Both the position numbers and the translations under genes were made by a program. From Chelativorans petroleitrophicus (lineage in GTDB: Bacteria > Pseudomonadota > Alphaproteobacteria > Rhizobiales > Rhizobiaceae): a stretch of 64,000 nucleotides of DNA. The stretch spans positions 124,001 to 188,000 of the forward strand of contig NZ_JAODNV010000009.1 in assembly GCF_025398195.1 (NCBI RefSeq), read 5' to 3'. Below the pieces are notes generated by a model. That model saw only the letters and a list, made by a program, of their open reading frames with translations. It did not search any database and was not told the origin of the DNA. Positions 17,376 to 32,375 of this stretch are shown here, one piece after another. The stretch's first letter is position 1. The number at the start of each line of letters is the position of its first letter.

Positions 17376-17389
17376 TTGATACAGATCAA
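17376..17389. promoter_or_regulatory. FNR/FixK box upstream of the flavodoxin-fold oxidoreductase
   Basis: TTGATACAGATCAA is a perfect TTGAT-N4-ATCAA palindrome. Its centre lies about 67 bp before the ATG at 17450, compatible with class II activation at -41.5 of a start site near 17424. An Fnr-type regulator is encoded at 26103. Confidence 0.8.
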
Positions 17390-17449
17390 GGCGCGGCGGC
17401 CGTGGCGGGGCTATCTTGCCCCGATAAAGCCTTAAGGGCTTGGGGCGCC

Positions 17450-18034
17450 ATGACCCGCCGCATCGTAATCATTCAAGGCCATCCCGATCCGGACCCTAGC
17501 CGCTACTGCCGCGCTCTGGCCGAGGCCTATGCGCAGGGCGCCAAGGCGGCAGGCCATGAGGTGACCATGATCGATCTCGCCGCACTCGATTTCCCGCTTC
17601 TGCGCAAGCAGGAGGATTTCCTGCATGGCTCGATGCCGCGGGAGCTCGAGCCCGCCAAGGAAGCGATCCTGCGGGCCGAACACCTGGTCTTTGTCTTTCC
17701 ACTGTGGCTCGGGACGATGCCTGCCCTGCTCAAAGGCTTCCTCGAACAGGTGATGCGTCCGGGCGTGGCCTTCGCCTATGGCAAGAGCGGCTTTCCGGAA
17801 ACACTCCTTAAAGGCCGCTCGGCGCGCATCATCGTCACCATGGGCATGCCGGCTTTCTTCTATCGTTGGTGGTTTCTGGGGCACGGACTGCGCGGTATGC
17901 GGCGCAACATCCTCAAATTCGTGGGCCTCGGCCCGGTGCGGGAGACCCTTTTCGGCATGATCGAGGCCGTTGGCGACGAAAAGCGCCGCAAATGGCTCGA
18001 TCAGATGCGCCGTCTCGGCGGGCGGGCGACCTGA
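17450..18034 (+). CDS. NAD(P)H-dependent quinone/flavin oxidoreductase, flavodoxin-like fold (KefF/MdaB type)
   Basis: This 194-residue flavodoxin-fold reductase has an N-terminal phosphate-binding stretch (IIQGHPDPDPSRYCRALAEAY) and LVFVFPLWLGTMPALLKGFLEQV, which forms the FMN/quinone pocket. Such enzymes reduce quinones by two electrons. I chose the ATG at 17450 because MTRRIVIIQGHP gives the normal N-terminus; an in-frame ATG at 17342 would include the FNR box inside the coding region. The perfect FNR box upstream marks it as low-oxygen induced. Confidence 0.88.
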   Translation: MTRRIVIIQGHPDPDPSRYCRALAEAYAQGAKAAGHEVTMIDLAALDFPLLRKQEDFLHGSMPRELEPAKEAILRAEHLVFVFPLWLGTMPALLKGFLEQVMRPGVAFAYGKSGFPETLLKGRSARIIVTMGMPAFFYRWWFLGHGLRGMRRNILKFVGLGPVRETLFGMIEAVGDEKRRKWLDQMRRLGGRAT

Positions 18035-18123
18035 GCTCGGCAGCCTGAAGTTCATTGTTGGCTTGCTCCGTGGCGCGAAGTGCCGCTGCACGGTATAAGC
18101 TCACCGGATGAGGGGAGGGACTG

Positions 18124-20232
18124 GTGCAGCCGGACGTCGGAGCGGTTCCGCTGATCGCGCTCGAGGCTGTGGCTTTCGATACGGAGACCACCGGCCTCGA
18201 CACGCACACCGCGCGCCTTGTGCAGATCGGCGGCGTAGCGGTCGCGCGCGGCACGGTACGTCCGGATGAGGCCTTCGAAAGCCTCGTGCGCCCGGGGCTG
18301 CCCGTTCCGCCTGAATCGACCCGCATTCATGGCATCACAGATGAGCAGGTGCACGAGGCGCCGGATTTTGCCTCCGTCTGGTCCAGCTTCGAGACGTTCC
18401 GCTGCGGGCGGCCACTGATCGGCTATGCCCTGGGCTTCGATCTCGCGATCCTGGAGAGGGAGGCGGCACGCGCCGGAATCCGGTGGGAGCGGCCGCGGAC
18501 CCTCTGCGTGCGCACGCTGAGCCGCGTCGTCAATCGCGACCTCGGCGATCACTCGCTCGAGGCGCTCGCCGCCCGGCTCGGCTTTGAGATTACAGGCCGC
18601 CATCAGGCGCTCGGCGACGCCATCGCGGCAGCGAGAGTGTTCACCGGGCTCCTGCCGAGGCTGCAGGCCATGGGTATCCGCACCTTCGCCGAGGCGGAAC
18701 GCGCCTGTCTCGAGCTTGCATCGGAAGAGGAGGCTCAGGCAAGGGCGGGCTGGGCCGCGCCCGTCCTGAGGCCAGCGCCACCTTCCTTCGCCGCCATAGA
18801 TCCCTTCGCTTACCGGCACCGGGTCGGCGATCTCATGACCGCGCCGCCGATCGTGATCCGCCATGACACGCCTCTTCGCGCGGCGATTGAACTGATGGCG
18901 GAAAGACGGGTGGGTTCCGTTCTCATTTCCGAAACGGGGGAGGCGGGACGCCCGGTGGGCGATTACGGCATCCTTTCGGAACGCGACGTGCTGCGCCTGC
19001 TCTCAGCCAATGGCGGGAATGTCATGGAGCGCCAGGCGGGCGAATTCGCCAACAGGCCGCTGATCACCATACGCGCCCAGGCCTTCGCCTATCGCGCGAT
19101 CGGCCGCATGGACAGGCTCGGTATCCGCCATCTCGGCGTGCATGACGAGAAGGATGCGCTGATAGGCGTCATCTCCGCGCGCGACCTCCTGCGTCTGCGC
19201 GCAAGCGCGGCCATCCAGCTCGACGACACGATCAACGCCGCCACATCCGATGCTGAGATGGCCGCCGCCTGGGCCTCCCTTCCTTCCGTTGCGGCGACTT
19301 TGGTGGCGGAGAAGGTCGAGGCACGGACCGTTGCCGAAATTATCAGCGAGGAGCTGCGCGCCATGACGCGCCGGGCGGCGATGCTTGCTGAGGAGGAGAT
19401 GCGGGCTGCCGGGCTGGGCGATCCGCCCGCTCCCTATGCCGTGCTGGTTCTCGGCTCGGCCGGGCGCGGCGAGAGCCTGCTTGCCGCCGATCAGGACAAT
19501 GCGATCGTCTTCGAGCGCGGCGAGCGGGGCGGGCCGGAGGACCGGTGGTTCGGCGCTCTCGGCGGGCGGATCGCCGCCATTCTCGATACGGCCGGGATTC
19601 CCTATTGCAGGGGCGGGGTGATGGCCAAGAATGGAGAATGGCGCGGCTCGCTGGATGTGTGGAGGGAGCGCATCAGCGGATGGATGCGCCGCTCCCGCCC
19701 GCAAGACCTGCTCAACGTCGATATCTTCTTTGACCTTATTCCGGTGTATGGCGAAAGGAGGCTCGGCGAGATCCTTTTCGAAGAAGCCTACGCATTGGGG
19801 CATCGGGATGCGGCGTTTCCGCTGGTGCTTGGCGAGCGGCTTGGCGCTGGACCGGCGCCCTTCACGCTGTTCGGCCGGCTGCGCACGGAGAACGGCCGGA
19901 TCGACCTCAAGCGCTATGCTCTCTTCCCGCTCGTTTCTGCCGCGCGGGCGCTTTCGATCCGCCACGGCATCCGCGCGCACTCCACAAGGGCGCGCCTTGA
20001 AGGTCTCCTTGAGAAGCAGATCGGCAGCCAAACGGCGATCCGCCGTGTGCTCGCCGCGCATGAGTTCGCGCTTTCGCTGATGCTTGCACAGCAGGGTCGC
20101 GACCGCCAGCAGGGCGTGCCGCCATCCAACGCCGTCGAGGTCGCCGCCCTTTCGCGCGACCGCCGGGCCGCGTTGCGGGAAGCCTTGAAGGACCTACAGA
20201 TCGTTCCCGAACTGATGCGCGACCTGATGTGA
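18124..20232 (+). CDS. fusion of DnaQ-type 3'-5' exonuclease, CBS pair and DUF294 nucleotidyltransferase-like domains
   Basis: This 702-residue protein has three parts. Residues about 14-185 are a DEDDh exonuclease: D19 and E21 in FDTETTGL, Asp in GYALGFDLAIL, and H-x4-D in RHQALGDA. Residues about 229-360 are two CBS motifs (YRHRVGDLMTAPP, then LGVHDEKDALIGVISARDLL), which normally bind adenine nucleotides. From about 400 on is a DUF294/GlnD-like nucleotidyltransferase with GSAGRGESLLAADQDNA (near residue 442) and its C-terminal helical domain. The catalytic residues of both enzymes appear intact. The start is GTG after GAGGGGAGGGA. The biological reaction is unknown. Confidence 0.9.
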   Translation: MQPDVGAVPLIALEAVAFDTETTGLDTHTARLVQIGGVAVARGTVRPDEAFESLVRPGLPVPPESTRIHGITDEQVHEAPDFASVWSSFETFRCGRPLIGYALGFDLAILEREAARAGIRWERPRTLCVRTLSRVVNRDLGDHSLEALAARLGFEITGRHQALGDAIAAARVFTGLLPRLQAMGIRTFAEAERACLELASEEEAQARAGWAAPVLRPAPPSFAAIDPFAYRHRVGDLMTAPPIVIRHDTPLRAAIELMAERRVGSVLISETGEAGRPVGDYGILSERDVLRLLSANGGNVMERQAGEFANRPLITIRAQAFAYRAIGRMDRLGIRHLGVHDEKDALIGVISARDLLRLRASAAIQLDDTINAATSDAEMAAAWASLPSVAATLVAEKVEARTVAEIISEELRAMTRRAAMLAEEEMRAAGLGDPPAPYAVLVLGSAGRGESLLAADQDNAIVFERGERGGPEDRWFGALGGRIAAILDTAGIPYCRGGVMAKNGEWRGSLDVWRERISGWMRRSRPQDLLNVDIFFDLIPVYGERRLGEILFEEAYALGHRDAAFPLVLGERLGAGPAPFTLFGRLRTENGRIDLKRYALFPLVSAARALSIRHGIRAHSTRARLEGLLEKQIGSQTAIRRVLAAHEFALSLMLAQQGRDRQQGVPPSNAVEVAALSRDRRAALREALKDLQIVPELMRDLM

Positions 20233-20454
20233 GCCGCGTTGCACCGGATGCCGTGCCGGCTATCTGGGTGATGTTCGGAACAGCCAGAGCTCCACCCGGT
20301 GAACCCGATACCGGCAAGAGCGTTGTCCCATCACAAAGCGTGCCGCATGGCTGAAGCGACATGGGAGGGAACCGCCGAACGGTGCATCACCGCGGGAGCC
20401 TATGGAATCGTGAAAGCGTCGACCGCAGCACAACTGGAAGCCAGCGCGCGAGGT

Positions 20455-23256
20455 ATGGCCCTTATGCCGGGCGACGGCGAGCCGCATCAGAGGACCATAG
20501 AGGACGTGCTGGCAGCGCTCGGCACGGACGCCGGGCAGGGCCTGACCGAGGCCGAAGCCACGGCGCGCCTTGACCGTTTCGGGCTAAACCAGATCCAGGC
20601 CGGGCGGGCAGTTCCGGCCTGGCAAAAGTTTCTCTCCCAGTTCACGGACGTGCTGGTTCTCCTGCTCATCGCGGCCGGCGTGATATCAGTCGTACTCTGG
20701 TTCTTCGAGGGCGGTTCCGCATTGCCCTATGAGGCGATCGCCATCTTCGTCATCGTGCTGCTCAACGGGATCATGGGCTACGTCCAGCAGGCGCGCGCGG
20801 AGAAGGCCGTTCAGGCACTGCGGACCATGTCTGCGCCGCGGGCCACGGTGATCCGTAACGGGGAAAGGCGGCGCATTCCGTCTGCCCGGCTGGTGCCGGG
20901 AGATATCATTCTCCTCGAGGAAGGGGACGCGGTGCCGGCGGATGCGCGGTTGATCGAAACCACCGCGCTGCGGACGACCGAGGCAGCACTGACCGGCGAG
21001 AGCGTGCCAGTTTCCAAGCACACCTTGCCCGTCGCTGCCGGCGCAGTGTTGGGCGACCGGCACAACATGGTCTTCAGCGGCACTGCCGTAGCCTACGGGC
21101 GAGGCAGGGCGGTAGTCACCGCCACCGGCATGCGCACCGAAATGGGCCGCATCGCCGGAATGCTGGAGCAGGCCCCGGAAGAACGCACCCCGCTGCAGGA
21201 CGAGCTCGACCGTGTTGGCCGCTCACTCGGCAAGATCGTGGTGGCTATCGCGGCGATCATGATCGCCACGATACTGCTGGTGGACGATGTCCAGGGCTTT
21301 TCGGCCTTGTTCGACGTGCTCATCCTGGGCGTTGCGCTTGCGGTCGCGGCAGTGCCCGAAGGCCTGCCCGCGATCATGACAACCGTGCTTTCCATCGGCG
21401 TCCAGCGCATGGCGAAACGCAAGGCCATCGTGCGTTACCTCGCAGCGGTCGAAACGCTCGGCTCAGCCGACGTCATCGCCTCGGACAAGACCGGTACACT
21501 CACCAGAAACGAGATGACGGTGCGCCGGATCGTGACTGCGAGCGGCCAAGTGCGGCTCACCGGCAGGGACCATCCGGAAACGGTGCGGGCGGAAAGCGCG
21601 GATTCAGCGTGCATCCACGCGGAGCTGAAGCGCGCGCTGATCGCAGCCGAGCGCGCCAACAACGCTGTGCTGCAGCAAAATGACGGCGATTGGTCGGTGC
21701 AGGGTGATCCCACCGAGGCCGCATTGATCGCCGCAGCCTGGAAGGCGGGCCTCGATTGCGAGGCGCTCAACCATCGCTTCAAGCGGGTCGCCGAAATTCC
21801 GTTCTCGTCGGAACGCAAACTGATGAGCACCATCCACGCCGATGCCGCGCGTGAAAGCGTGCTGCGCGCGTTTACCAAAGGTGCGCCGGACGTTCTGCTC
21901 GCGCGCTGTTCGCACGAGCTGGTGGGCGAGGAAGCAAGACCACTTACGGACGAGCGCCGGGCCGAGATCATGGCGGCCAACGAGGCATTGGCGAGCGAGG
22001 CGCTGCGCACGCTGGGAGTCGCCTTCCGCTCTATCCCCGTGCAGGAAGCGAATGATGTCCCTTCATCCGTGGATGTCGAGAACGACCTCGTCTTTCTCGG
22101 CCTGATCGGAATGATGGACCCGCCACGCGAGGAAGCGCGGCAGGCGGTGGCGGAGGCCAAAGCGGCAGGCATCCGCCCCATCATGATCACGGGCGATCAT
22201 CCGAGGACCGCCGCCGTCATCGCCGCCGAGCTCGGCATCACGGACGATCTGCGCGCGGTGACCGGTGCGGAACTCGAAACGATGCCGGACGACCAATTCG
22301 ACCGCACGGTGAGGGACGTTTCGGTTTATGCTCGTGTCGATCCCGCCCACAAGCTGCGCATCGTCGATGCGCTGCAGCGACAGGGCGCGACCGTCGCCAT
22401 GACCGGTGACGGTATCAACGATGCGCCGGCGCTCAAGGCGGCCGACATCGGTATCGCCATGGGGATCACCGGAACGGACGTGTCGAAGGAAGCCGCCGAT
22501 ATCGTGCTCGCCGACGACAATTTTGCCACCATCGTCGCCGCCGTGGAGGAGGGGCGCGCGATCTTCTCGAACATCAGGAAGTTTCTGCGTTACCTACTTT
22601 CCTCGAACATCGGGGAGGTGATGACGATGTTTTTCGGCGTGGTTCTTGCCGATGTAATTGGTCTGGTGGAGGGCGACGGCGGGCTTGTCCTTCCGCTGCT
22701 CGCCACGCAGATCCTGTGGATCAATCTCGTTACCGACGGAGCTCCCGCCCTTGCGCTCGGCGCGGACCCCGCAAGCACCAGCATCATGAGACGGCCGCCG
22801 CGGCCGCGTGGAGAAGGCGTCATTCCCCGGCGGATGTGGGCGGGCATTCTTCTTGTGGGCACGGTCATGGCAGCGGGTACGCTGGCCGTGATCGACGGTT
22901 CGCTCCCCGGCGGCCTGATCGAGGGCAATGGAAGCGTCGCCTACGCCCAGACCATGGCCTTTACGACGCTTACCCTTTTCCAGCTTTTCAACGTGTTCAA
23001 TGCGCGTTCGGACGAGCGGAGCGCGTTCTCCGGGATCTTTTCCAACCGCTGGCTCTGGGCCGCCCTGGTCCTGTCTCTCATGCTGCATGCTGCGGTCGTG
23101 TACGCGCCTTTCCTGCAGCAGGCGTTCTCCACGGTCAGTCTTAGCGCAGCCGACTGGCTGGTGTGCGCGGCAGTGGCAAGTTCGGTGCTGTGGGTGCGCG
23201 AGTTAAGCAAGCTTGCCATGGCCCGCAGCCGTTTGGATCGCGCCGTCGCTGCTTAA
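20455..23256 (+). CDS. P-type Ca2+-transporting ATPase (type IIA, SERCA-like)
   Basis: This protein of about 933 residues has the phosphorylated Asp in SDKTGTLT (near residue 343), hinge GDGINDAPAL (near 650), TGES in the actuator domain and a KGAPDVLL nucleotide-domain motif. Ion-site helices match SERCA pumps: VAAVPEGLPA in M4, SSNIGEV in M5 and NLVTDGAPALALG in M6, which supports Ca2+ (Mn2+ is possible). About ten membrane segments are expected. I prefer the ATG at 20455, preceded by GCGAGGT; earlier in-frame starts at 20299 and 20347 add an extension with no family counterpart. A universal stress gene follows by 27 bp. About 220 bp before the start hold nothing else recognised. Confidence 0.92.
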   Translation: MALMPGDGEPHQRTIEDVLAALGTDAGQGLTEAEATARLDRFGLNQIQAGRAVPAWQKFLSQFTDVLVLLLIAAGVISVVLWFFEGGSALPYEAIAIFVIVLLNGIMGYVQQARAEKAVQALRTMSAPRATVIRNGERRRIPSARLVPGDIILLEEGDAVPADARLIETTALRTTEAALTGESVPVSKHTLPVAAGAVLGDRHNMVFSGTAVAYGRGRAVVTATGMRTEMGRIAGMLEQAPEERTPLQDELDRVGRSLGKIVVAIAAIMIATILLVDDVQGFSALFDVLILGVALAVAAVPEGLPAIMTTVLSIGVQRMAKRKAIVRYLAAVETLGSADVIASDKTGTLTRNEMTVRRIVTASGQVRLTGRDHPETVRAESADSACIHAELKRALIAAERANNAVLQQNDGDWSVQGDPTEAALIAAAWKAGLDCEALNHRFKRVAEIPFSSERKLMSTIHADAARESVLRAFTKGAPDVLLARCSHELVGEEARPLTDERRAEIMAANEALASEALRTLGVAFRSIPVQEANDVPSSVDVENDLVFLGLIGMMDPPREEARQAVAEAKAAGIRPIMITGDHPRTAAVIAAELGITDDLRAVTGAELETMPDDQFDRTVRDVSVYARVDPAHKLRIVDALQRQGATVAMTGDGINDAPALKAADIGIAMGITGTDVSKEAADIVLADDNFATIVAAVEEGRAIFSNIRKFLRYLLSSNIGEVMTMFFGVVLADVIGLVEGDGGLVLPLLATQILWINLVTDGAPALALGADPASTSIMRRPPRPRGEGVIPRRMWAGILLVGTVMAAGTLAVIDGSLPGGLIEGNGSVAYAQTMAFTTLTLFQLFNVFNARSDERSAFSGIFSNRWLWAALVLSLMLHAAVVYAPFLQQAFSTVSLSAADWLVCAAVASSVLWVRELSKLAMARSRLDRAVAA

Positions 23257-23283
23257 ACCTATATTCAAGGTAAGGAGACAAAG

Positions 23284-24141
23284 ATGAGCTTGGATCGTCC
23301 AAAATCACCGAAGAGAATTCTCCTTGCCACGGATCTGGATCCGCGCTCGGACAGGGCGCTCGACCGCGCGGCGCTTCTTGCCGGCGAATTTTCCGCCGAG
23401 CTGTTTGTGGCGCACGTTCTTGAGGACATTCCTGACGGAGAAGACGCTATACCCTCATGGAGGCGCCCGCCGAGCCTCGTGGATGTCGCACGGCGGCAGC
23501 TTTTGCGTCAGGTCGGTGCAGTGGCACAGAAGGCTACCATCCTGATCGAGCAGGGCGACCCCGCCAAGGCGATTCTGAATGCGGCCGAGCGGGAAGGATG
23601 CGACTTAATCGTGACCGGGGTAGCGAAGGAGGAGCTGTTCGGCCGCTTCAGTCTGGGCGTGACGGTGGACGGAATTCTGCGCGGCACGCGCGTTCCGGTG
23701 CTTGTGGTCAAGAGCCGCGGGGTGAACCCGTATAAGCAGATCGTGGTCGCTACCGACTTTTCTGCATACTCCCGGCAAGCGCTCGATACCGCCGTTGAAT
23801 ATTTTCCGGATCGCAGGCTGACCCTGCTCCATGCCTATGATGCGCCGATGTCTCTGCTGTCATCCGACCCTGACGGCTACCGGCAGGAGCGGCAAGAGGC
23901 CGCGAGAAAGGAATGCGCGGACTTCCTCCGCGATTCGGGGCATGATGTGGACCGGTTCATTGCCTTCGGTGCGCCGGATATCGTGATGCACGACTACGCG
24001 CTGGAGAACGGCACCGATCTCGTGGTCCTCGGCACCCGCGGTCGAAGTGGGATCGGAGAGTTTTTCCTTGGCAGCGTCGCGAAATCGATTGTTCTGGCCG
24101 TACCATGCGATGCTCTGCTGATGCGCCACCGAACGGGCTGA
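23284..24141 (+). CDS. two-domain universal stress protein
   Basis: This 285-residue protein consists of two UspA folds: residues about 8-145 (RILLATDLDPRSDRAL... RGTRVPVLVVKSR) and about 150-283 (QIVVATDFSAYSRQAL... GTRGRSGIGEFFLGSVAKSIV). The second half has the ATP-binding G-x2-G-x9-G(S/T) type motif. The ATG follows AAGGAGACAAAG. It lies 27 bp after the Ca2+ ATPase gene and is probably co-transcribed with it. It is one of three tandem Usp proteins in the oxygen-limitation island. Confidence 0.92.
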   Translation: MSLDRPKSPKRILLATDLDPRSDRALDRAALLAGEFSAELFVAHVLEDIPDGEDAIPSWRRPPSLVDVARRQLLRQVGAVAQKATILIEQGDPAKAILNAAEREGCDLIVTGVAKEELFGRFSLGVTVDGILRGTRVPVLVVKSRGVNPYKQIVVATDFSAYSRQALDTAVEYFPDRRLTLLHAYDAPMSLLSSDPDGYRQERQEAARKECADFLRDSGHDVDRFIAFGAPDIVMHDYALENGTDLVVLGTRGRSGIGEFFLGSVAKSIVLAVPCDALLMRHRTG

Positions 24142-24170
24142 GCAGGCGCATTATGGCAGACACCCCTGCC

Positions 24171-24500
24171 TCATTCGGGCGATTCCTCCACCAGGTGCAC
24201 CACGCCGATCACCTTTTCGAGCGGAAGCATGAAGGCAAGCCCTTTTCCAGGGGCGTTCAGTTCGGCCGCCTCCTCGACGGCCTGCAAAACCGTATCCTTC
24301 AGATCAGCGGGAACGACGGTCAGGACGATCTCCTTTTCTGGCTCGATCTGAATGCCGAAAACCCGTTGCTGCTCGTTGCGCCCGATGCCGCGGCCGAAAA
24401 GAACCGTGCCGCCATGGGCACCCGCATTCATCGTCGCTTCGAGGATCGTGTCGCCCCAACCCCTGCGGACTATGCTTACGATCAGATACGGCTCCAGCAT
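24171..24500 (-). CDS. PII-like signalling protein
   Basis: This 109-residue protein has the ferredoxin-like PII fold: LEPYLIVSIVRRGWGDTILEATMNAGAHGGTVLFGRG, then EKEIVLTVVP. The residues matching the T-loop of GlnB/GlnK are replaced (IGRNEQQRVFGIQI) and no uridylylation tyrosine is seen, so it is a PII-like protein and not a classical GlnK. The ATG at 24500 has an excellent AAAGGAG; an upstream in-frame TTG at 24575 would overlap the DUF1538 gene. It is the last gene of a three-gene operon with two DUF1538 membrane proteins, just as GlnK follows AmtB, so it may gate them. Confidence 0.87.
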   Translation of the reverse strand: MLEPYLIVSIVRRGWGDTILEATMNAGAHGGTVLFGRGIGRNEQQRVFGIQIEPEKEIVLTVVPADLKDTVLQAVEEAAELNAPGKGLAFMLPLEKVIGVVHLVEESPE

Positions 24501-24504
24501 CTCG

Positions 24505-25236
24505 TCACTCCTTTGCGACTTTCCGCCTGATGAGCAGGCCGAGAATGGTGACTGATATGATAGGGGCCACCGCAATGAGCGCCACCAGACCGAGGCCGTG
24601 CGTCACCGGGCTCTGATCGTCCATCGCGGCGGAGGCCCCCAGAGCGAGCGCAAGAAGAAAGGTGTTGGCGAGCGGTCCCGTCGCCACACCGCTGGCATCG
24701 ATGGCGATCGCCACGAAATCCCTGTCACTCATCGCGATGATGAGAACAGCAATGATGTAGCCGGGCAGAAGCAGGTGAAGAATCGGAATGCCGAACTTAA
24801 TCCGCAGAAGCCCAAGCGTGACCCAGACGGCGACGCCTAAACAGACGGCGTAGAGCACCATGATGCCCGGTATTCCTCCGTGAGACACCTCATCCACCTG
24901 GTCGGCCAGGATGCGGACGGCAGGCTCGCCCCAGGTGGTCGTAAATCCCAGGAACAGGCCGATGCCGATCAGCATCCACATATTCTGCATGGCGCCTACG
25001 GCTTCGCCGATCGCGCGCCCGAAGGGCAGAAAGCCGATGCTCACGCCGAGCAGGAATAGGAAAAGCCCCGCGGCGGCCAGCGCCGTTCCAAGAAGGATAT
25101 CCTTCACCTCGCGCCGCGGCAGCCGCAGCATGAACACCTGGAACGCGACGAACAGCGCGGCGAGCGGCAGGATTGCCACGGCGATACTGAGCGCCGTTTC
25201 CGCAATCTGATCCAGGAATGTGCCGTTCAGCTCCAC
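24505..25236 (-). CDS. DUF1538 family membrane protein (second of pair)
   Basis: This 243-residue protein has about seven hydrophobic segments. The conserved central stretch is FTTTWGEPAVRILADQVDEVSHGGIPG; the acidic and polar residues inside the membrane (E, D, Q) are shared with the partner protein. The start is GTG, inside the last codons of the upstream DUF1538 gene (10-bp overlap). The function of the family is not established. The paired layout and the downstream PII-like protein suggest a transporter or channel of two halves under small-molecule control. Confidence 0.87.
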   Translation of the reverse strand: MELNGTFLDQIAETALSIAVAILPLAALFVAFQVFMLRLPRREVKDILLGTALAAAGLFLFLLGVSIGFLPFGRAIGEAVGAMQNMWMLIGIGLFLGFTTTWGEPAVRILADQVDEVSHGGIPGIMVLYAVCLGVAVWVTLGLLRIKFGIPILHLLLPGYIIAVLIIAMSDRDFVAIAIDASGVATGPLANTFLLALALGASAAMDDQSPVTHGLGLVALIAVAPIISVTILGLLIRRKVAKE

Positions 25237-25922
25237 AGGATCCCCATCAACAGAACAGACAGGATCGCGCCGACGGATGCGAGGCCGGATATGCCGAAAC
25301 CGTCCCCGACGGCGGTGCGGCCGGCCAGAACCGAACTTAAACCCATGGCGATCGAGATCAGTACCGGCGCGGTCAAAACCCCGGTGGTAACGCTGCCGGC
25401 ATCGAAGGCGAGCGCGACGAATTCTTCAGGTGCTGCAAGCGCAAGGCCAAGCATCAAGCCATAGGCGACAAGCACCAAACCCTTTACCGGCCAGCCGAAG
25501 AGAATGCGCAAACTCGCAATCACGGTGAGAACGGCCACCCCGGTGGCGATGACGTAAAGCACCGCCATCCCGGGAATGTCGCCTTGCGAGGCCTCGTCCA
25601 CCTGTCCGGCAAGAACCAGCACATCGGGCTCTGCCACCGTCGTAGCAAAGCCCAACGAGAAAGCGACAGCCACGATCAGGCTGATAGAGCTCTTCTTCGG
25701 TAGTTCAGCGCCGATGAACCGGCCCATCGGCAGAATCCCGAGATCGACTCCGAGAAGCAGAAGCAGCATGCCCGCGCCTGCCAGGGCGGCGCCTGCGAGG
25801 AACTGGAGGAACAGCCCGAGCGGAGCGTGGACGAGCGTGACCTGCAGCAGGCACACCACACCGACCAGTGGCGCAACCGCTTTCAAAACCTCGATGACCT
25901 TGTCCCTTGTCCTGAAGGCCAT
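25227..25922 (-). CDS. DUF1538 family membrane protein (first of pair)
   Basis: This 231-residue protein has about seven membrane segments and the same signature as its neighbour, FATTVAEPDVLVLAGQVDEASQGDIPG, so the two are paralogous halves. The ATG at 25922 was preferred over a TTG at 25943. It begins the operon DUF1538-DUF1538-PII. The 180 bp between it and the divergent fnr gene must hold both promoters; I saw no FNR box there. Confidence 0.87.
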   Translation of the reverse strand: MAFRTRDKVIEVLKAVAPLVGVVCLLQVTLVHAPLGLFLQFLAGAALAGAGMLLLLLGVDLGILPMGRFIGAELPKKSSISLIVAVAFSLGFATTVAEPDVLVLAGQVDEASQGDIPGMAVLYVIATGVAVLTVIASLRILFGWPVKGLVLVAYGLMLGLALAAPEEFVALAFDAGSVTTGVLTAPVLISIAMGLSSVLAGRTAVGDGFGISGLASVGAILSVLLMGILWS

Positions 25923-26102
25923 GCCACGGACAATCCGCTGCAAACCGGAGGCTCAATGGTCGCGTGAATATTGGCAAATTGCAACGAAAGGGTCATTTTG
26001 CCGCTGTCGGGGGGCGCTGTGCAGGGTCGCACGGCCATTTGGTCGCACGACCGGTTCGCAAAATTGTGGTAAGAACCCCGTAGAAACAGACGAGCAGCCG
26101 CT

Positions 26103-26825
26103 GTGCAGCAACAAGAGCTATACAAGTGCGGAGTTCCCGCTGCATGCATCTTCTGTGACGCACGGAGGAGAGGGATGTGCGGCGCGCTGGAGCCGCACCA
26201 GCTTGCGAAACTGTCGAAATATTCCGTCCGGAAGAACGCAAGCAGCGGAAAGGAACTCTATTCCGCGACCGACAGGACGGGCGGCTTCTCGAACATCCTT
26301 TCGGGCGTCGTCAAGCTCAGCAGAACGCTGTCGGACGGCCGCCAGCAGATCGTCGGCCTTCAGTTCCCACCGGATTTTCTGGGCCGCCCCTTCAAGTCCG
26401 GAAACGCCATCACGGCCGAGGCGGTGACGGAGGTCGTGCTCTGCTCGCTTCCGCAGGCTGCGGTGGAAAGGATGATAGCGGAATCGCCCAGCCTGGAGCA
26501 TCGGCTCTATGAGCAATCCCTGCGAGAGCTGGACGAAGCGCGCGAACTGATGGTGACGCTGGGGCGGAAGACAGCGGCGGAAAAGGTCGCGAGCTTTCTG
26601 ATAATGATCGCCCGGCACCTGGACCCGGCGAGCCAGGAGCGCAAGTCGACCGCCTTCGACCTGCCGCTCACGCGCATGGACATCGCCGATTATCTGGGCC
26701 TGACGATCGAAACCGTCAGCCGCCAGCTCACGCAGCTCAGAAGCGCGAACATCATTCAGATCGTCAACAAGCATCACATCATTGTTCCGAACCTGGCCCG
26801 CCTGGCTGCCCGGGCTGGAGATTAG
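26103..26825 (+). CDS. fnrN: Crp/Fnr-family regulator, FnrN type with N-terminal iron-sulfur cysteines
   Basis: This 240-residue regulator has an N-terminal cysteine cluster C-x2-C-x7-C in ACIFCDARRRGMCGAL, with a further Cys at position 9 and a central one in EVVLCSLP, the arrangement that ligates an oxygen-labile [4Fe-4S] cluster. A cyclic-nucleotide-like barrel follows, then an HTH with LTIETVSRQLTQLRSANII, whose E-x2-S-R recognises TTGAT half sites. The GTG start at 26103 is needed to include the cysteines. An in-frame ATG at 26175 has a much better ribosome site but would remove most of them. It probably activates the FNR boxes of this island. Confidence 0.88.
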   Translation: MQQQELYKCGVPAACIFCDARRRGMCGALEPHQLAKLSKYSVRKNASSGKELYSATDRTGGFSNILSGVVKLSRTLSDGRQQIVGLQFPPDFLGRPFKSGNAITAEAVTEVVLCSLPQAAVERMIAESPSLEHRLYEQSLRELDEARELMVTLGRKTAAEKVASFLIMIARHLDPASQERKSTAFDLPLTRMDIADYLGLTIETVSRQLTQLRSANIIQIVNKHHIIVPNLARLAARAGD

Positions 26826-27327
26826 GCATTGGCCATCCTCCGGCGAGCGGGAGAACGTGCTCGCGCTCGAATGCCACGTGACGCCGCACCGACCTGAAAA
26901 AGGTGCGCAGCATGAAACCCAACGCTTCGGGATTTTCGACCCCAGCCCCATGGCCTATAAAGAAAAGTCTCTCGGATATCTCTTCGGCCAGCGCCTCGTC
27001 TTCGACATGCTCCACGCGCAGACGTGCGAGCGTCCTTTGCCCTTCCACGCGAAAAGCGGCTTCCTTGCAGAACGCTGGATAGACAACGTCTTCCTCAAAG
27101 GCATGGGCCATCTGCAGGGCGGGAAGCAGCGTCTCCGCCATCCACAGGCACTGAGCCCTGTCGACAAGGCTGGGCAGACTGTCAGCAATCGCTTCAAGTG
27201 CTGTGCACAGGTCCAGCTTTATCCAGAAATGTGCGTTGCTTCCCTTGCACAACAGGCACCGCTGCGCCGCGCATCTGCTCGCGAAGGGGCAGCTTTCATA
27301 GGGGGCGTTGATCGGCGGCCAGGTCAA
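26779..27327 (-). CDS. hemerythrin-like (HHE) domain protein with N-terminal cysteine cluster
   Basis: This protein of about 182 residues is predicted all-helical. It carries iron-ligand motifs of hemerythrin-like proteins: H-x3-E in AHAFEEDVVYP, H-x3-E in VEHVEDE, and H...E-H in RRHVAFEREHVLP. The N-terminus has a separate cluster, CPFASRCAAQRCLLC (C-x5-C-x4-C-x2-C), which could bind metal. The start is uncertain: TTG at 27327 is the best candidate and has no clear ribosome site. It is convergent with fnrN, overlapping its 3' end by 47 bp, and follows hemN closely. Binding of O2 or NO, or iron storage, is an inference. Confidence 0.7.
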   Translation of the reverse strand: MTWPPINAPYESCPFASRCAAQRCLLCKGSNAHFWIKLDLCTALEAIADSLPSLVDRAQCLWMAETLLPALQMAHAFEEDVVYPAFCKEAAFRVEGQRTLARLRVEHVEDEALAEEISERLFFIGHGAGVENPEALGFMLRTFFRSVRRHVAFEREHVLPLAGGWPMPNLQPGQPGGPGSEQ

Positions 27328-27362
27328 GACGGACTCGTTGGTTCCGGAGGCTCTGCCATCAC

Positions 27363-28739
27363 CTAGACGGCAACCGAATGACGCGCATTGCCCTTGGCAA
27401 GATACGCATCGAAGCGGGCAGCGACGGCACGCACCAGCACCCGGGCCTCCGCCGGTATATGGTAAAGATCGCCGCTTTGGGTGATCAGGTCGGGTTCCTC
27501 CGCCGCCAGAGCTTCAGCTTCTGCGACGAGCCGGAGCCCGATCCCGCCGAAGCGGCTTTCCGCCTCCGCGCGCGAGAAGGCGAGATCGCACATGAGGCGT
27601 TCGATCACCCAGGCGCGGGCGCGGTCCTCCTCGGAGAGCGCGATGCCACGCGCGGTTGCAAGCCCGCCATTCTCCACCTGGCTGCTGTAGATGTTGATGG
27701 CCGGCGTATTCTGCGCGTAACCCTGCCTGAAACGCGAAACCGAGGACGGCCCGAGGCCGATCAGCGTCTCGCATCCGTCATCCGTGTAGCCCTGGAAATT
27801 GCGGCGCAGACGGCCGGCCCTTGCCGCAGCCGCAAGCGTATCGTCGGGCTTAGCGAAATGATCGAAGCCGATCGGCTGATAGCCCGCCTTTTCGATCAAC
27901 CCCCCCGCAAGCTGCTGCTGCGCCAGGCGCGCCTCGGGGCCAGGAAGCGCTGCTTCATCGATCATCGTCTGGTGCTTCTTGAACCAAGGCACATGCGCAT
28001 AGCCGAACAGCGCGATGCGGTCCGGCGAGAGAAGAAGCGCCTGGTCAATGGTTGACTCGAGGCTTTCCATTGTCTGATGAGGCAGGCCGTAAAGCAGATC
28101 GAGATTGAGCGAGCGAACACCGCGGGCGCGCACGCCTTCCACCACCGTCTGCGTCAGCGCGAAGCTTTGCTCGCGGTTGATCGCCTTCTGCACCTTGGGG
28201 TCGAAGTCCTGCACGCCGAGGCTCGCCCGTGTCATGCCGATCGCGGCGAAAGCATCGAGCCGGCCTTCATCCATATCGCTGGGATCGAGCTCGACACTGA
28301 TGTCGGCCTCTTCCACAAAGTCGAAGGCGCCGCGCAGGGCGGCATTGAGCGCAAGGACATCTTCCGGCTTCAGGATCGTGGGCGAGCCGCCGCCAAAATG
28401 CAGCGCGCGAACACGCGCGCCCCCGACCAGCCTTCCGACCGTGGCAATCTCCTGCCTGAGCGCTTCTAGGAAAGCGGCCACAGGCTCATAGCGCCGGGTC
28501 ATCTTCGTGTGGCAGGCGCAGAACCAGCAGAGCCGATCGCAGAAGGGAATGTGCACGTAAAGCGAGATCTCTTCCCCTGACTGCACCTGTCCCAGCCAGG
28601 CGCGGAATTCCGCAGCGCCCACGCCCGAATGAAAATGCGGAGCTGTCGGGTAGCTCGTATAGCGCGGCAAGGACGCTGAAATGCGCTGCTTCAAGCCTTT
28701 GGGCGCTATGCCGATCACCTGTTCGCCTGCTCTTTGCAT
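27363..28739 (-). CDS. hemN: oxygen-independent coproporphyrinogen III oxidase
   Basis: This 458-residue radical-SAM enzyme converts coproporphyrinogen III to protoporphyrinogen IX without oxygen. The cluster motif C-x3-C-x2-C-x-C is in IPFCDRLCWFCACHTK (near residue 68), preceded by RYTSYPTAPHF, which is diagnostic of bacterial HemN. GGGSPTIL is the SAM glycine motif. The ATG at 28739 follows AAAGGGGATTTCG; an earlier in-frame start at 28793 would cover the FNR box. The box TTGACGCGGATCAA ends 54 bp upstream of the ATG, a classic arrangement for anaerobic hemN. Confidence 0.95.
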   Translation of the reverse strand: MQRAGEQVIGIAPKGLKQRISASLPRYTSYPTAPHFHSGVGAAEFRAWLGQVQSGEEISLYVHIPFCDRLCWFCACHTKMTRRYEPVAAFLEALRQEIATVGRLVGGARVRALHFGGGSPTILKPEDVLALNAALRGAFDFVEEADISVELDPSDMDEGRLDAFAAIGMTRASLGVQDFDPKVQKAINREQSFALTQTVVEGVRARGVRSLNLDLLYGLPHQTMESLESTIDQALLLSPDRIALFGYAHVPWFKKHQTMIDEAALPGPEARLAQQQLAGGLIEKAGYQPIGFDHFAKPDDTLAAAARAGRLRRNFQGYTDDGCETLIGLGPSSVSRFRQGYAQNTPAINIYSSQVENGGLATARGIALSEEDRARAWVIERLMCDLAFSRAEAESRFGGIGLRLVAEAEALAAEEPDLITQSGDLYHIPAEARVLVRAVAARFDAYLAKGNARHSVAV

Positions 28740-28792
28740 CGAAATCCCCTTTGCTGTCAGCGCAAGATGTACACCGACAGCCGCACCGTGCA

Positions 28793-28806
28793 TTGACGCG
28801 GATCAA
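28793..28806. promoter_or_regulatory. FNR/FixK box upstream of hemN
   Basis: TTGACGCGGATCAA, a TTGAC-N4-ATCAA palindrome, lies 54 bp before the hemN ATG on the minus strand. hemN is a well-established FNR-regulon member in proteobacteria, which supports the call. Confidence 0.82.
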
Positions 28807-28910
28807 GGAAGGAGCATTTGATCAGGAATAATCATGGGCCGGCATAAGTAAGGCAGGAAGTTTTATCCGCGTCTTATCCAAATCTTCGCCTATACGCGGA
28901 AGCAAAATCG

Positions 28911-28924
28911 TTGACGCAGATCAA
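28911..28924. promoter_or_regulatory. FNR/FixK box in the hemN-carbamate kinase intergenic region
   Basis: TTGACGCAGATCAA is a TTGAC-N4-ATCAA box. It is nearer to the plus-strand carbamate kinase (ATG 29103, about 180 bp away) than needed for hemN, which has its own box. The 363-bp gap 28740-29102 holds these two boxes and no gene that I can support; the distance implies a leader of more than 100 nt for the kinase if this box drives it. Confidence 0.72.
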
Positions 28925-29102
28925 ACAGGCAAAAGCAGAATCTGGTAATCAAAAAAACAGGTATTGGCGAACCGGACGACGTGTAGGCAGCGAGGATTAA
29001 GCTTATACGCCTTATCGCGTCACGGCCGGCGTCATGGCCGCAACCGGAAGCCCGCATGCACACCATCAAGGCAGTGCTCGTTGCTACCGTAGGAGGCTGA
29101 AA

Positions 29103-30014
29103 ATGCGCGTCGTCGTGGCAATTGGCGGAAGCGCGCTGCTCAAACGGGGTCAGCCGATGACGGCGGAGGTGCAGCGCGCCAATGTGCGTGTGGCCGCGGA
29201 GGCGCTGGCCGATCTTGCCCGTGACCATGAGATCGTGGTCGCGCACGGCAACGGCCCGCAAGTGGGGCTGCTTGCGCTGCAGGCCGCCGCCTACAAGGGC
29301 GTCGAACCCTATCCGCTTGATATCATCAGTGCCGAGAGCGTCGGCATGATCGGCTATCTGCTCGAGCAGGAAATGGTAAACGCGATGCCGCCGGGCGCCC
29401 GCTGCGCCACGCTTCTCACCCAGATCGAGGTCGATCCGGACGATCCCGCCTTCAAAAGGCCGCGCAAGACGATCGGCCCGCTCTACGACGAGGTGGAAGC
29501 GCACCGGCTGCGCGACGAGAAGAAATGGCCCATGTGCGAGGAGAGTGCGGGCAACTGGCGCCGCGTCGTTCCTTCGCCCACGCCGCGCCGGATCATTGAG
29601 ATCGGGGTGATCCGGCTACTGGTCGAGGCGGGCGTTACCGTGATTTGTGCCGGGGGCGGGGGCATTCCCGTCGTCCGCAACTGCGACGGCGAGCTGGAAG
29701 GCGTCGAAGCCGTCATCGACAAGGATCACGCCGCCGGACTCCTTGCCTCGGAGGTGGAAGCCGATGCGTTCCTGATGCTCACGAATGTGGAGGCGGTCTT
29801 TTCGGATTGGGGCACGCCGGCTGAGCGTCCGATCCGCGAGACCACGCCCGTCGAACTTTCCGCCATGACCTTCGCCGCAGACTCCATGGGCCCGAAGGTG
29901 GAGGCCGCCTGCGCCTTTGCCGCAACGCGTGGAAAGATGGCCGGGATCGGCCGCCTGCAGGATGCGCGCGCCATCCTCGAAGGCCGGGCGGGCACCCGGG
30001 TGAGAGCAAGCTGA
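29103..30014 (+). CDS. arcC: carbamate kinase
   Basis: This 303-residue amino acid kinase-fold enzyme makes ATP from carbamoyl phosphate and ADP. Characteristic stretches are VVAIGGSALLKRGQ, VVAHGNGPQVGLLALQ, KTIGPLYD, RRVVPSPTPRRIIE and ICAGGGGIPVV, then VIDKDHAAGLLA. The ATG at 29103 follows TAGGAGGCTGAAA; an in-frame ATG at 29034 is less likely. No arginine deiminase, ornithine carbamoyltransferase or antiporter gene is nearby, so the source of carbamoyl phosphate is elsewhere. The FNR box at 28911 suggests induction under low oxygen for substrate-level ATP formation. Confidence 0.94.
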   Translation: MRVVVAIGGSALLKRGQPMTAEVQRANVRVAAEALADLARDHEIVVAHGNGPQVGLLALQAAAYKGVEPYPLDIISAESVGMIGYLLEQEMVNAMPPGARCATLLTQIEVDPDDPAFKRPRKTIGPLYDEVEAHRLRDEKKWPMCEESAGNWRRVVPSPTPRRIIEIGVIRLLVEAGVTVICAGGGGIPVVRNCDGELEGVEAVIDKDHAAGLLASEVEADAFLMLTNVEAVFSDWGTPAERPIRETTPVELSAMTFAADSMGPKVEAACAFAATRGKMAGIGRLQDARAILEGRAGTRVRAS

Positions 30015-30062
30015 GCAGGCCTTTCGAACGAACAGCGGAAATATCCGCAATCCGGCTGGCTC

Positions 30063-30905
30063 CTAATGCGCCATGAAAAGAACTGTCGGGACGTCATCCA
30101 GCAGCGAGCGGGTGACGCCGCCGAGTAAATCCTGGCGGAAGCGCGAATGAACGAAGGCACCCATGACCAGCATGTCAATCTGCTCGTCCGCCACGAACAT
30201 TCGCATTCTGGCCGCGGCATCGCCGCGGATCGCGGCCAGCGTCTCGCTGCGCGGCTCGTGGATGCCATGCTGGATGAGATAGGTGGCGAGATCGGCGCCA
30301 GGGGCCATCCGCGACAGATCCTTTTCCCCCGTCACGGTGAGAATGAACACCTTCGCCGCCTTCTTCAGGAAAGGGAGCGCGCTTGAGACGGCGCGCGCGG
30401 CGCGGCTGCTGCCGTCCCATGCCACGGCGATGCGATCCGGCGGCGCGTTTCCACCGGTCTTCGGCACGACCAGCAGAGGCCTGCCGCCTTCGAAGAGCGC
30501 ATCCTCGATCGCGTTCTTCTGCGCGAAATCCTGGCCCTCTGAGGCATCGAGAACGGCGAGGTCGTTCACGCGCGCCAGACGCACGAACCGGCCCGTGCGG
30601 GTCTCCAGCGGAGACATGGTGTGCTCGGCCATGCAGGCCACGCCCGCCTTTCTCACGAATGCGCCGGCATCCTGAGCCGTCTGCCTACTGATGTCCTCGA
30701 GGCGCTGTATCTCCTCCCTCAGGAAGCCCGCAGCGACACCCCCCGTGCGGGTGATCGGCATGTAAAAGGCAGGCGGAAGCACGCATACCGTGAGGCAGGC
30801 TCCATATTCCTTGGCGAGTTCGATAGCGTAGGTGAGGGCAGGGGAGGGTGCGAATTCCTCGCATGCCGCCATTCCCACGAGAATGCATTTCGGCTGGACT
30901 GTCAT
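30063..30905 (-). CDS. two-domain universal stress protein
   Basis: This 280-residue protein has two UspA-like halves. The second half has IAVAWDGSSRAARAVSSALPFL, typical of tandem Usp proteins, and ends MGAFVHSRFRQDLLGGVTRSLLDDVP, which includes the G-G-V-T-R-S ATP-site variant. The ATG at 30905 was chosen for its canonical N-terminus; a start at 31010 would overlap the upstream gene. It follows the next Usp gene in the same direction by 73 bp and is convergent with carbamate kinase. Confidence 0.9.
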   Translation of the reverse strand: MTVQPKCILVGMAACEEFAPSPALTYAIELAKEYGACLTVCVLPPAFYMPITRTGGVAAGFLREEIQRLEDISRQTAQDAGAFVRKAGVACMAEHTMSPLETRTGRFVRLARVNDLAVLDASEGQDFAQKNAIEDALFEGGRPLLVVPKTGGNAPPDRIAVAWDGSSRAARAVSSALPFLKKAAKVFILTVTGEKDLSRMAPGADLATYLIQHGIHEPRSETLAAIRGDAAARMRMFVADEQIDMLVMGAFVHSRFRQDLLGGVTRSLLDDVPTVLFMAH

Positions 30906-30978
30906 AATTTCTGTCCTGGTTCGTTGGTCCCGCGCCTGACGCGCCTGGTCACGTTCGTGCTCCTGGAGCAGGCTGCGG

Positions 30979-31812
30979 CTAACGCGCCATGAAGACGGGC
31001 AGATCTGCATTGCCGATCATGGACCGCGTCACGCCCCCGAAGATGAGGTCGCGCAGCCGCGAGTGCCCGTAGGCGCCGATGACGATCATGTCGGCCGCCG
31101 TGTCGACCGCGTGCGTGCGCAGCGCGTCGGCAACCGGCTGGCCGCCGCTCGGAAGCCTATCGACAACCGCCTTTACGCCGTGGCGCGCGAGATAGGCGGC
31201 AATGTCCGCTCCGGGCTCGATCTGCAGCCCGTCTTCCCTGCCGCGCGGATCGACCATCGCTATATGGACCTCCTCGGCTCCCGCCAGCAACGGAAGAGCC
31301 TCATGCACGGCGCGGCTCGCTTCCAGTCCGCCGTCCCAGCCGACAAGCACCCGCTTCGGCCTGACGGTGGGACGCTTGCCGTCCGGGACAAACAGCACCG
31401 GAATCTGCGCCTGATAGAGAGCGCCTTTAAGGACTGGCGTTCTCAGATTGTCATCCGCAGCGAGCACGGGGCCGATCACCGTTAGGTCGGCACATCGGGC
31501 GCGATGGCCCACCGCCTCGTCGATCCACGCCCTGTCGAGATACTCCCCGCCGACATCGGCGGAGAGCTGCGTGACGGCCAGCAGGGCTTTCACCTCCTCC
31601 ACGCGCTCACGCAGCCGTTCGATGTCTTCCTGGCGCTCCTCGAGCCAGGCCGCATTGACGACGGCCGCGTATTCGGACGCCGGAGGCGGTGCGGAAATGG
31701 CAAGGACGAGCACTGCCAGATGCGCCTCCGCTTCGCGGGCCAGTTCGATCGCCAGGATCAAATCGCCGTCGGAATGATCGACGCCGATCACGCTGAGCAC
31801 CGTCTTGATCAT
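30979..31812 (-). CDS. two-domain universal stress protein
   Basis: This 277-residue protein has an N-terminal UspA half (VLSVIGVDHSDGDLILAIELAREAEAH) and a C-terminal half (RVLVGWDGGLEASRAVHEALPLL... IGAYGHSRLRDLIFGGVTRSMI). It is paralogous to the downstream gene; together they form a two-gene Usp operon. An imperfect FNR box (31881) lies 69 bp upstream and a perfect one (31914) about 100 bp upstream, so it is probably induced by the Fnr-type regulator. Usp proteins are known FNR/FixK targets in rhizobia and pseudomonads. Confidence 0.91.
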   Translation of the reverse strand: MIKTVLSVIGVDHSDGDLILAIELAREAEAHLAVLVLAISAPPPASEYAAVVNAAWLEERQEDIERLRERVEEVKALLAVTQLSADVGGEYLDRAWIDEAVGHRARCADLTVIGPVLAADDNLRTPVLKGALYQAQIPVLFVPDGKRPTVRPKRVLVGWDGGLEASRAVHEALPLLAGAEEVHIAMVDPRGREDGLQIEPGADIAAYLARHGVKAVVDRLPSGGQPVADALRTHAVDTAADMIVIGAYGHSRLRDLIFGGVTRSMIGNADLPVFMAR

Positions 31813-31880
31813 TGTCAGGTTCTCCTAGGACAGGAACCGTCCGCCCTGATGCTTTTTACGCCCGGCGAAGGGGAGGCGAA

Positions 31881-31894
31881 TTGCGCTGGATCAA
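31881..31894. promoter_or_regulatory. imperfect FNR-like box upstream of the Usp operon
   Basis: TTGCGCTGGATCAA has one good half site (ATCAA) and one mismatched half (TTGCG). It lies 69 bp from the minus-strand usp ATG. It could serve usp while the better box at 31914 serves the divergent gene, or be chance. Confidence 0.4.
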
Positions 31895-31913
31895 CCGCCT
31901 TCATCAAAATTGA

Positions 31914-31927
31914 TTGACGCTGGTCAA
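31914..31927. promoter_or_regulatory. FNR/FixK box upstream of the 129-residue protein gene
   Basis: TTGACGCTGGTCAA is a perfect inverted repeat TTGAC-N4-GTCAA. It ends 59 bp before the ATG at 31986, a suitable distance for activation, and also lies in the divergent promoter of the Usp operon. Confidence 0.72.
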
Positions 31928-31985
31928 GGAATGAAGCTCGGCAAGGTGCGAAGGTGGCAGCAATCACCGCTCAAGGAGAGACGCC

Positions 31986-32375
31986 ATGGAAACGGCCAAA
32001 AGAAAGCCCGGAAAGAACTTCCGTCATGTCCGGATGGAGCTCGCGCGCGAGAGGGAGCACCCCCAGGGCAACAGCGCCTACGGATACGATCTCGTTGTTC
32101 CGCTCGGCCCGGACGGCAGCCTCGATTCCATGGAGTGGGCGAAGCACCAGGCGGATTGCCGCGTGCGCCGCTTCCGGCCTGGCGAGAAGGATCAGATCGG
32201 AAGGTTACGTCGCAAGCCTGGCGGTCAATGGTATTTCGACTATGGCGAGGGCGAGGACGACGACGAGATCGGCTTCCGCCTAAGCGACGAGCGTTTCGTG
32301 CCGGGCGAATATGTCTCGATCAACAGCGACGGGAAGATGCGCACCTACCAGATCAAGCTCGTTGAGCCGGTCTGA
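31986..32375 (+). CDS. conserved-looking hypothetical protein, FNR-box controlled
   Basis: I do not recognise this 129-residue soluble protein. It is rich in charged residues, with a basic N-terminus (METAKRKPGKNFRHVRMELARE), a middle with a tryptophan and a single cysteine (SMEWAKHQADCRVRRFRPGE), a WYFDYGEGEDDDEIGF acidic stretch and a beta-rich end (FVPGEYVSINSDGKMRTYQIKLVEPV). No signal peptide or membrane segment is visible. A strong ribosome site (AAGGAGAGACGCC), high-GC codon use and the FNR box upstream say it is real and low-oxygen induced. Function unknown. Confidence 0.8.
   Translation: METAKRKPGKNFRHVRMELAREREHPQGNSAYGYDLVVPLGPDGSLDSMEWAKHQADCRVRRFRPGEKDQIGRLRRKPGGQWYFDYGEGEDDDEIGFRLSDERFVPGEYVSINSDGKMRTYQIKLVEPV

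Follow-up and report, generated by a model that had tools for sequence, protein, structure and literature searches.

Do the FNR-box palindromes crowded into one part of a Chelativorans petroleitrophicus contig mark a low-oxygen regulon, and which protein would read them? The window, i.e. the whole stretch analysed, comprises 64,000 nucleotides of contig NZ_JAODNV010000009.1 (assembly GCF_025398195.1; positions 124,001 to 188,000, forward strand). According to the original prediction, the palindrome TTGAY-N4-RTCAA occurs at 17376, 28793, 28911 and 31914, and imperfectly at 31881, in front of genes for a reductase, HemN, carbamate kinase, universal stress proteins (Usp) and a protein of unnamed family (unk129), with the likely regulator encoded in the same island. 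A pattern scan of the entire window found exactly these four sites and no fifth. The features are listed in Table 1. Judged from the sequence, the clustered FnrN island is real and statistically clear; it is of a known kind and represents mostly ordinary FNR/FixK biology. Quite probably, its genes serve low-oxygen stress and redox functions and are controlled by FnrN, an oxygen sensor that the island itself encodes. The original prediction is borne out in most respects, with some details revised.

Table 1. Features of the island (positions refer to the window).
Feature	Coordinates	Strand	Basis
Exact FNR box TTGATACAGATCAA	17376..17389	+	74 bp before reductase start; TATCTT 22 nt past box
Flavodoxin-fold NAD(P)H reductase, first gene of probable operon	17450..18034	+	Pfam Flavodoxin_2, E 4.8e-37
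Exonuclease-CBS-DUF294 fusion	18124..20232	+	Pfam RNase_T, CBS, DUF294, DUF294_C; 89 bases past reductase
Ca-type P-type ATPase	20299..23256	+	Pfam cation ATPase domains; 66 bases past exonuclease-CBS-DUF294
Double universal stress protein	23284..24141	+	Pfam Usp, two stretches; 27 bases past Ca-ATPase
fnrN, Fe-S oxygen-sensing Crp/Fnr regulator, 240 aa	26103..26825	+	Crp-type domains; Cys15, 18, 26, 114
Hemerythrin-like protein	26779..27327	-	Pfam Hemerythrin, E 4.6e-10; 35 bases past hemN, same strand
hemN, oxygen-independent coproporphyrinogen III oxidase	27363..28739	-	TIGR00538, 418.5 bits (cut-off 324.95)
Exact FNR box of hemN	28793..28806	-	67 bp before hemN start
Exact FNR box between hemN (-185) and arcC (-192)	28911..28924	.	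pattern scan
Remnant of arcB (ornithine carbamoyltransferase) 3' end	29007..29102	+	arcB named by eye
Carbamate kinase arcC, intact open frame	29103..30014	+	NF009008, 448 bits (cut-off 361)
Universal stress protein, second gene of pair	30063..31010	-	Pfam Usp, E 1.5e-11
Universal stress protein, first gene of pair	30979..31812	-	Pfam Usp, E 1.3e-12
Imperfect box	31881..31894	-	82 bp before usp start
Exact FNR box of unk129	31914..31927	+	72 bp before unk129 start
unk129, 129-aa protein of unnamed family	31986..32375	+	no library model match

In 100 shuffles of the window, the exact pattern was found 0.10 times on average and twice at most, and no shuffle reached four copies. The box density was also compared with the genomic background, as had been suggested. 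The genome (3,959,353 bases) contains 12 exact sites, compared to three for the reversed pattern that served as a control. Four of the 12 lie within 14.6 kb, and the probability that any four of 12 uniformly placed sites share 14,552 bp is 9.6e-5. Allowing one mismatch, seven sites were found in the window (the new ones at 31805, 52816 and 53536), a number near chance (2.95 on average in shuffled sequence, with seven reached in 3 of 100 shuffles). In the whole genome there are 240 one-mismatch sites, compared to 76 for the reversed control, which leaves room for further, weaker targets elsewhere. The imperfect copy at 31881, TTGCGCTGGATCAA, is present as described and differs from the pattern at two points.

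The regulator encoded inside the island is FnrN. Its four cysteines (CX2CX7C plus Cys114) are invariant in 101 of 101 homologues, and its best NCBIfam model is FnrL (217.6 bits, cut-off 300). FixK was considered as an identity for this protein and does not fit, as the four cysteines are present; the FixK model scores 120.5 bits. The best 80 of 520 confirmed named matches come chiefly from Mesorhizobium and other Hyphomicrobiales and are up to 63% identical. In the loci of these relatives, fnrN, a hemerythrin-like gene and hemN are commonly grouped and boxed: a hemerythrin-like match stands beside fnrN in 69 of 80 loci, and an exact box was found at most 300 bp upstream of fnrN in 53 of 80, of the hemerythrin-like gene in 55 of 67 and of hemN in 48 of 53 cases. 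At one locus from the same order (L204 3452-11230, genome G038), fnrN, unk129 and the hemerythrin-like gene occur together with five exact boxes.

For three of the four exact boxes and for the imperfect one, the distance to the gene is kept in orthologues of sister species. Gene starts were set where sister orthologues align, namely at 17450 (not 17342) for the reductase, at 28739 for hemN and at 29103 for carbamate kinase. The exact box is then located at -74 for the reductase (-69, -68 and -71 in three sisters), at -67 for hemN (-67, -67 and -66 in three sisters) and at -72 for unk129 (-73, -73, -73, -76, -68 and -68 in six sisters). For the usp pair, the spacing is kept by the imperfect site: the 14-mer at 31881 is identical in two sister loci (L287, L290) and changed at one base in a third (L293), and the sister copies lie at -81 when counted from ATG codons that precede the aligned starts by 3 or 6 bases. 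The site at 31881 is therefore probably that of the usp pair. With the exact box at unk129, it seems that both divergent genes have a site of their own.

At class II FNR promoters, the activator site is centred at -41.5. The motif TANNNT was looked for downstream of 34 boxes (26 of unk129, four of the reductase and four of hemN, many of the sequences being related). It occurred nine times at 20-23 nt past the box and six times over the 33 other spacings tested. This preference (9 of 15 occurrences) fits class II activation.

From the cysteines, the sites and their spacing we infer cluster chemistry, binding, activation and operon structure as follows. FnrN would carry an oxygen-labile [4Fe-4S] cluster, which is kept when oxygen falls. 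The cluster-bearing protein would dimerise, bind the boxes and recruit RNA polymerase from about -41.5 (class II). Behind box 17376, it would turn on an operon comprising the reductase, exonuclease-CBS-DUF294, Ca-ATPase and Usp genes, which lie on one strand (17450-24141) with gaps of 89, 66 and 27 bases. It would further turn on the usp pair and unk129, as well as hemN and the hemerythrin-like gene, which would serve oxygen-free haem synthesis and the handling of oxygen or nitric oxide.

The exonuclease-CBS-DUF294 and Ca-ATPase genes had been proposed as non-boxed associates of the island. They are probable members but probably not without a box, as both would be transcribed as later genes of the operon that begins after box 17376. 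The Ca-ATPase and the double Usp (23284) would belong to the same transcript; the best NCBIfam model of the former is of the PMR1 type, with a score under the cut-off. Likewise, the hemerythrin-like gene would stand behind a box via hemN, from which it is separated by 35 bases on the same strand. The reductase gene adjoins that of exonuclease-CBS-DUF294 in the sisters G005, G006 and G010 (L287, L289, L294) and, with a broken match, in G012 (L293); no Ca-ATPase or Usp gene was observed downstream of the pair in these sister loci. In many genomes of the class, the two halves of the exonuclease-CBS-DUF294 fusion match separate neighbouring frames.

A further proposed member, the DUF1538/PII operon (24171-25943), is not supported, as no upstream site within two mismatches was found. 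Its paired DUF1538 membrane proteins (24505-25943) are of the same type as the two-component Na+(Li+,K+)/H+ antiporter UmpAB (PMC5484666). In contrast to that system, a PII-like protein follows the pair here.

Several observations weigh against control of the island by FnrN. The FnrL score of the protein lies under the cut-off. No TANNNT occurs at 20-23 nt after 25 of the 34 boxes, and among the three window promoters tested, it is found at class II spacing only at 17376 (TATCTT). The fnrN gene itself has no upstream box, even when two mismatches are allowed, and box-mediated autoregulation is therefore improbable; in Rhizobium leguminosarum, FnrN is autoregulated through a box (PMC7888657). 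For the cco operon, a usual FNR target located on another contig, the 16 kb fetched contained no exact box and one one-mismatch site, which lies inside an upstream open reading frame. Box 28911 is without a conserved counterpart in sister species. Moreover, the sisters hold boxed genes but no fnrN, which means that the boxes are not dependent on FnrN itself.

The placement of the boxes before genes, as originally proposed, thus holds for the reductase, hemN, usp and unk129 on the basis of sister spacing, but not for 28911 as a conserved promoter site of carbamate kinase. The surroundings of the latter gene show a broken operon. Two pieces of 29007-29102 align with positions 10740-10792 and 10940-10990 of L291, which are pieces of the end of the arcB-like gene of sister G006. 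In this sister, the order is arcA, an arcB-like gene (by eye), arcC and a Ca-type ATPase that is 73% identical to that of the window. The sole arcA match in the genome of C. petroleitrophicus is a C-terminal piece (positions 255-408 of 408), which is located about 74 kb from arcC on the same contig (L316 1382-2247; C69, about 78 kb), beside an arcD-like start (arcD named by eye). An arcABC operon, i.e. arcA and arcB together with arcC, was not found in this genome. On this sequence evidence, the carbamate kinase is a leftover of a broken arginine deiminase operon, and box 28911 may be the former promoter site of the arc operon.

Which regulators accompany the boxes in related species? No fnrN ortholog was found in 15 sister genomes, the best match having about 31% identity. 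A divergent FnrL-like match of about this identity is present in G003, G005 and G012; by eye, that of G005 has only two N-terminal cysteines, and its 20-kb locus contains seven exact boxes (L304 7148-18275). The island genes do occur in the sister genomes, many of them boxed. A FixK-like protein is encoded in seven of the 15 sisters (G001, G003, G005, G006, G010, G012, G014), and its gene lies a few kb from boxed island genes in five of these seven (L287, L289, L293, L295, L296). These proteins are 60-100% identical to that of G006, which is without the cluster cysteines and has FixK as its best model, with a score under the cut-off. Since seven of 15 sisters have a FixK-like protein and none has an fnrN ortholog, related boxed genes would be under different regulators. 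The box counts differ between the two groups of sisters: 18-58 exact boxes per genome were found in the seven FixK sisters and 6-15 in the other eight (one-sided Mann-Whitney P 0.0007, relatedness ignored), compared to 12 in C. petroleitrophicus. The 18 boxes of G014 stand against a control count of 12, and G004, one of the other eight, retains a 92-residue FixK-like fragment.

Horizontal transfer of the whole island was also considered and is not supported. The sisters possess orthologues, many of them boxed, and the G+C content is 0.637 within the island and 0.624 in the remainder of the window. At the amino-acid level, near-whole matches of exonuclease-CBS-DUF294 in sisters are 71-84% identical (56-59% in the broken match of G012) and the unk129 orthologues 66-73%, and usp orthologues are present as well. 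The best named relatives of fnrN reach just 63% identity, so that a recent donor is not apparent.

The presence of FixK in the sisters raises the question of whether the main reader of the boxes is a different Crp/Fnr protein, with FnrN being one of several. FixK-like proteins are the neighbouring regulator there, FNR, FixK and DNR are said to bind very similar sites (PMC2908626), and the genome of C. petroleitrophicus has two further strong HTH_Crp_2 matches, at C54 and C68. However, these two proteins share only 23-29% identity with FnrN and 31-32% with sister FixK, the genome yielded no FixK ortholog, and FnrN is encoded inside the island. We consider such a dominant second reader unlikely. 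Even less probable is a decaying island, in which the boxes would be left over from a once larger regulon and have little effect today. The arcB scraps before arcC and the truncated arcA by the arcD-like start would agree with decay, and the number of boxes outside the island (eight) resembles that in sister genomes lacking full-length FixK (6-15). Nevertheless, the reductase, hemN, usp, unk129 and fnrN have intact frames, the boxes are conserved and the cysteines invariant, which makes us regard this explanation as very doubtful.

The surroundings of the eight exact sites outside the island, which bear on the possibility that the palindromes are clustered by chance, were read by eye, with gene names given without family search. 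Three sites (L001, L005, L012) fall within long open reading frames. Two others (L002 and L003, at 1501-1514 of these loci; contig C8) represent the palindrome TTGACAGCTGTCAA, which flanks a ParA-like gene on both sides and probably functions in plasmid partition or control; it matches the FNR pattern and is present in sister genomes too. Possible promoter sites are L004, which precedes a SorC-like regulator, given a later start, L006 near an IS21-type gene, and L007 between open reading frames. Several of the sites elsewhere thus need not be FNR sites. Given the cluster statistic and the placement conserved in sisters, a chance cluster is nevertheless hardly credible, and control by FnrN remains the preferred explanation.

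The member of the island without a name is unk129. It has no match in Pfam, NCBIfam or PHROGs; when 15 family members were compared with Pfam, two weak CDC48_2 matches were obtained (best E 0.036). With a profile of the family, no convincing match to a PDB sequence was obtained (best E 0.2). AlphaFold, run on the single sequence, gave a poor model (mean predicted local distance difference test score, pLDDT, 63.4) that consists mostly of strands, and Foldseek yielded 639 weak matches to it, none at E 0.001 or better.

In the class sample, 72 of 385 genomes contain a homologue of unk129, the own genome among them. For 60 of the 71 other genomes, boxes were counted (11 were left out; three of the 60 homologues, whose automatic translation ran into a stop, are absent from the protein listing but were retained here), with permuted dyads and distance bins as controls. 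An exact box lies at most 1.2 kb upstream of 28 of the 60 homologues. The 59 permuted dyads gave 0.22 on average, and the two most frequent of them reached five. The box density is 0.844 per kb at 0-300 bp upstream, 0.282 at 301-1200 bp and 0-0.050 in the other bins. A Usp match lies within 3 kb of 32 of the 60 homologues (a count without control), and boxed homologues do not have a Usp nearby more often (13 of 28) than those lacking a box (19 of 32). At a locus of class member G238 (L219 6769-16199), unk129, exonuclease-CBS-DUF294 and Usp stand together with five exact boxes; the same parts are thus gathered in a distant genus too.

In 40 plasmid records with an unk129 match, the gene is called 'hypothetical protein' or is unannotated. 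Nine plasmid loci were opened, and six have an exact box at most 1 kb upstream: Nitratireductor rhodophyticola (-98), Nitratireductor sp. OM-1 (-100, -65), Bosea (-66), Mesorhizobium (-63), Terrarubrum (-150) and Bradyrhizobium (-889). No exact box was found within this distance in Shinella, Azospirillum and Sphingobium. Among the plasmid neighbours are a cbb3 oxidase with FixLJ and a Crp/Fnr gene at one locus, a cbb3 oxidase at another, Usp with bacteriohemerythrin at one locus and an NAD(P)H-dependent oxidoreductase at two. The hypothetical FixK targets mentioned in PMC2908626 and PMC6515984 could belong to the same family; published examples of such targets are blr0497, RPA1672 and RPA4239. 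Tentatively, and with slightly more doubt than confidence, we propose that the unk129 family is widespread and dedicated to the low-oxygen response of alphaproteobacteria, that it travels with Usp, flavodoxin-fold reductase, bacteriohemerythrin or cbb3 oxidase genes, and that it is read by FnrN or FixK depending on the lineage. In this genus, the island would have kept its boxes while the resident regulator differs, being either FixK driven by a separate sensor or FnrN with its own Fe-S sensor.

Much of this agrees with known systems. For alphaproteobacteria, a core FNR/FnrL regulon has been described (Dufour et al. 2010, PMC2908626), whose core targets include hemN, usp and cbb3 genes; FNR and FixK targets overlap, and membership varies between close species. 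The island shares with it hemN, a usp gene and the fnr gene, which are listed there under the neighbouring locus tags RSP0697-0699; it differs in having no exact box at cco or fnrN, and the reductase, exonuclease-CBS-DUF294 and unk129 are additions. The Rhizobiales FnrN/FixK network (PMC4999443, PMC7888657) likewise has an Fe-S FnrN with cysteines, a FixK without them and the same anaerobox, and both genetic clustering and FnrN-FixK replacement have been described there; in Caulobacterales, FnrN was replaced by FixK and the sites were reused (PMC4999443). In contrast to this network, C. petroleitrophicus has FnrN alone, and FixK-like proteins are found by related boxed genes in its sisters. 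By analogy, the FixK/FnrN difference looks like a within-genus instance of this known replacement process. In Bradyrhizobium diazoefficiens, the Usp, CBS-domain and hypothetical proteins induced by microoxia (PMC6515984) make up a similar parts list, with FixK2-dependent members, but organism and regulator are others.

As read from its sequence, the island would exemplify a clustered FnrN regulon cleanly. Among the leads, unk129 is the most rewarding, as its family is conserved, often box-bearing and without a model in the libraries searched. The boxed genes beside FixK in sister species may be regarded as a natural experiment on changing the oxygen level at which a gene set switches. If the proposal for the unk129 family is true, FixK or FnrN as the resident regulator would shift the oxygen threshold of one gene set.

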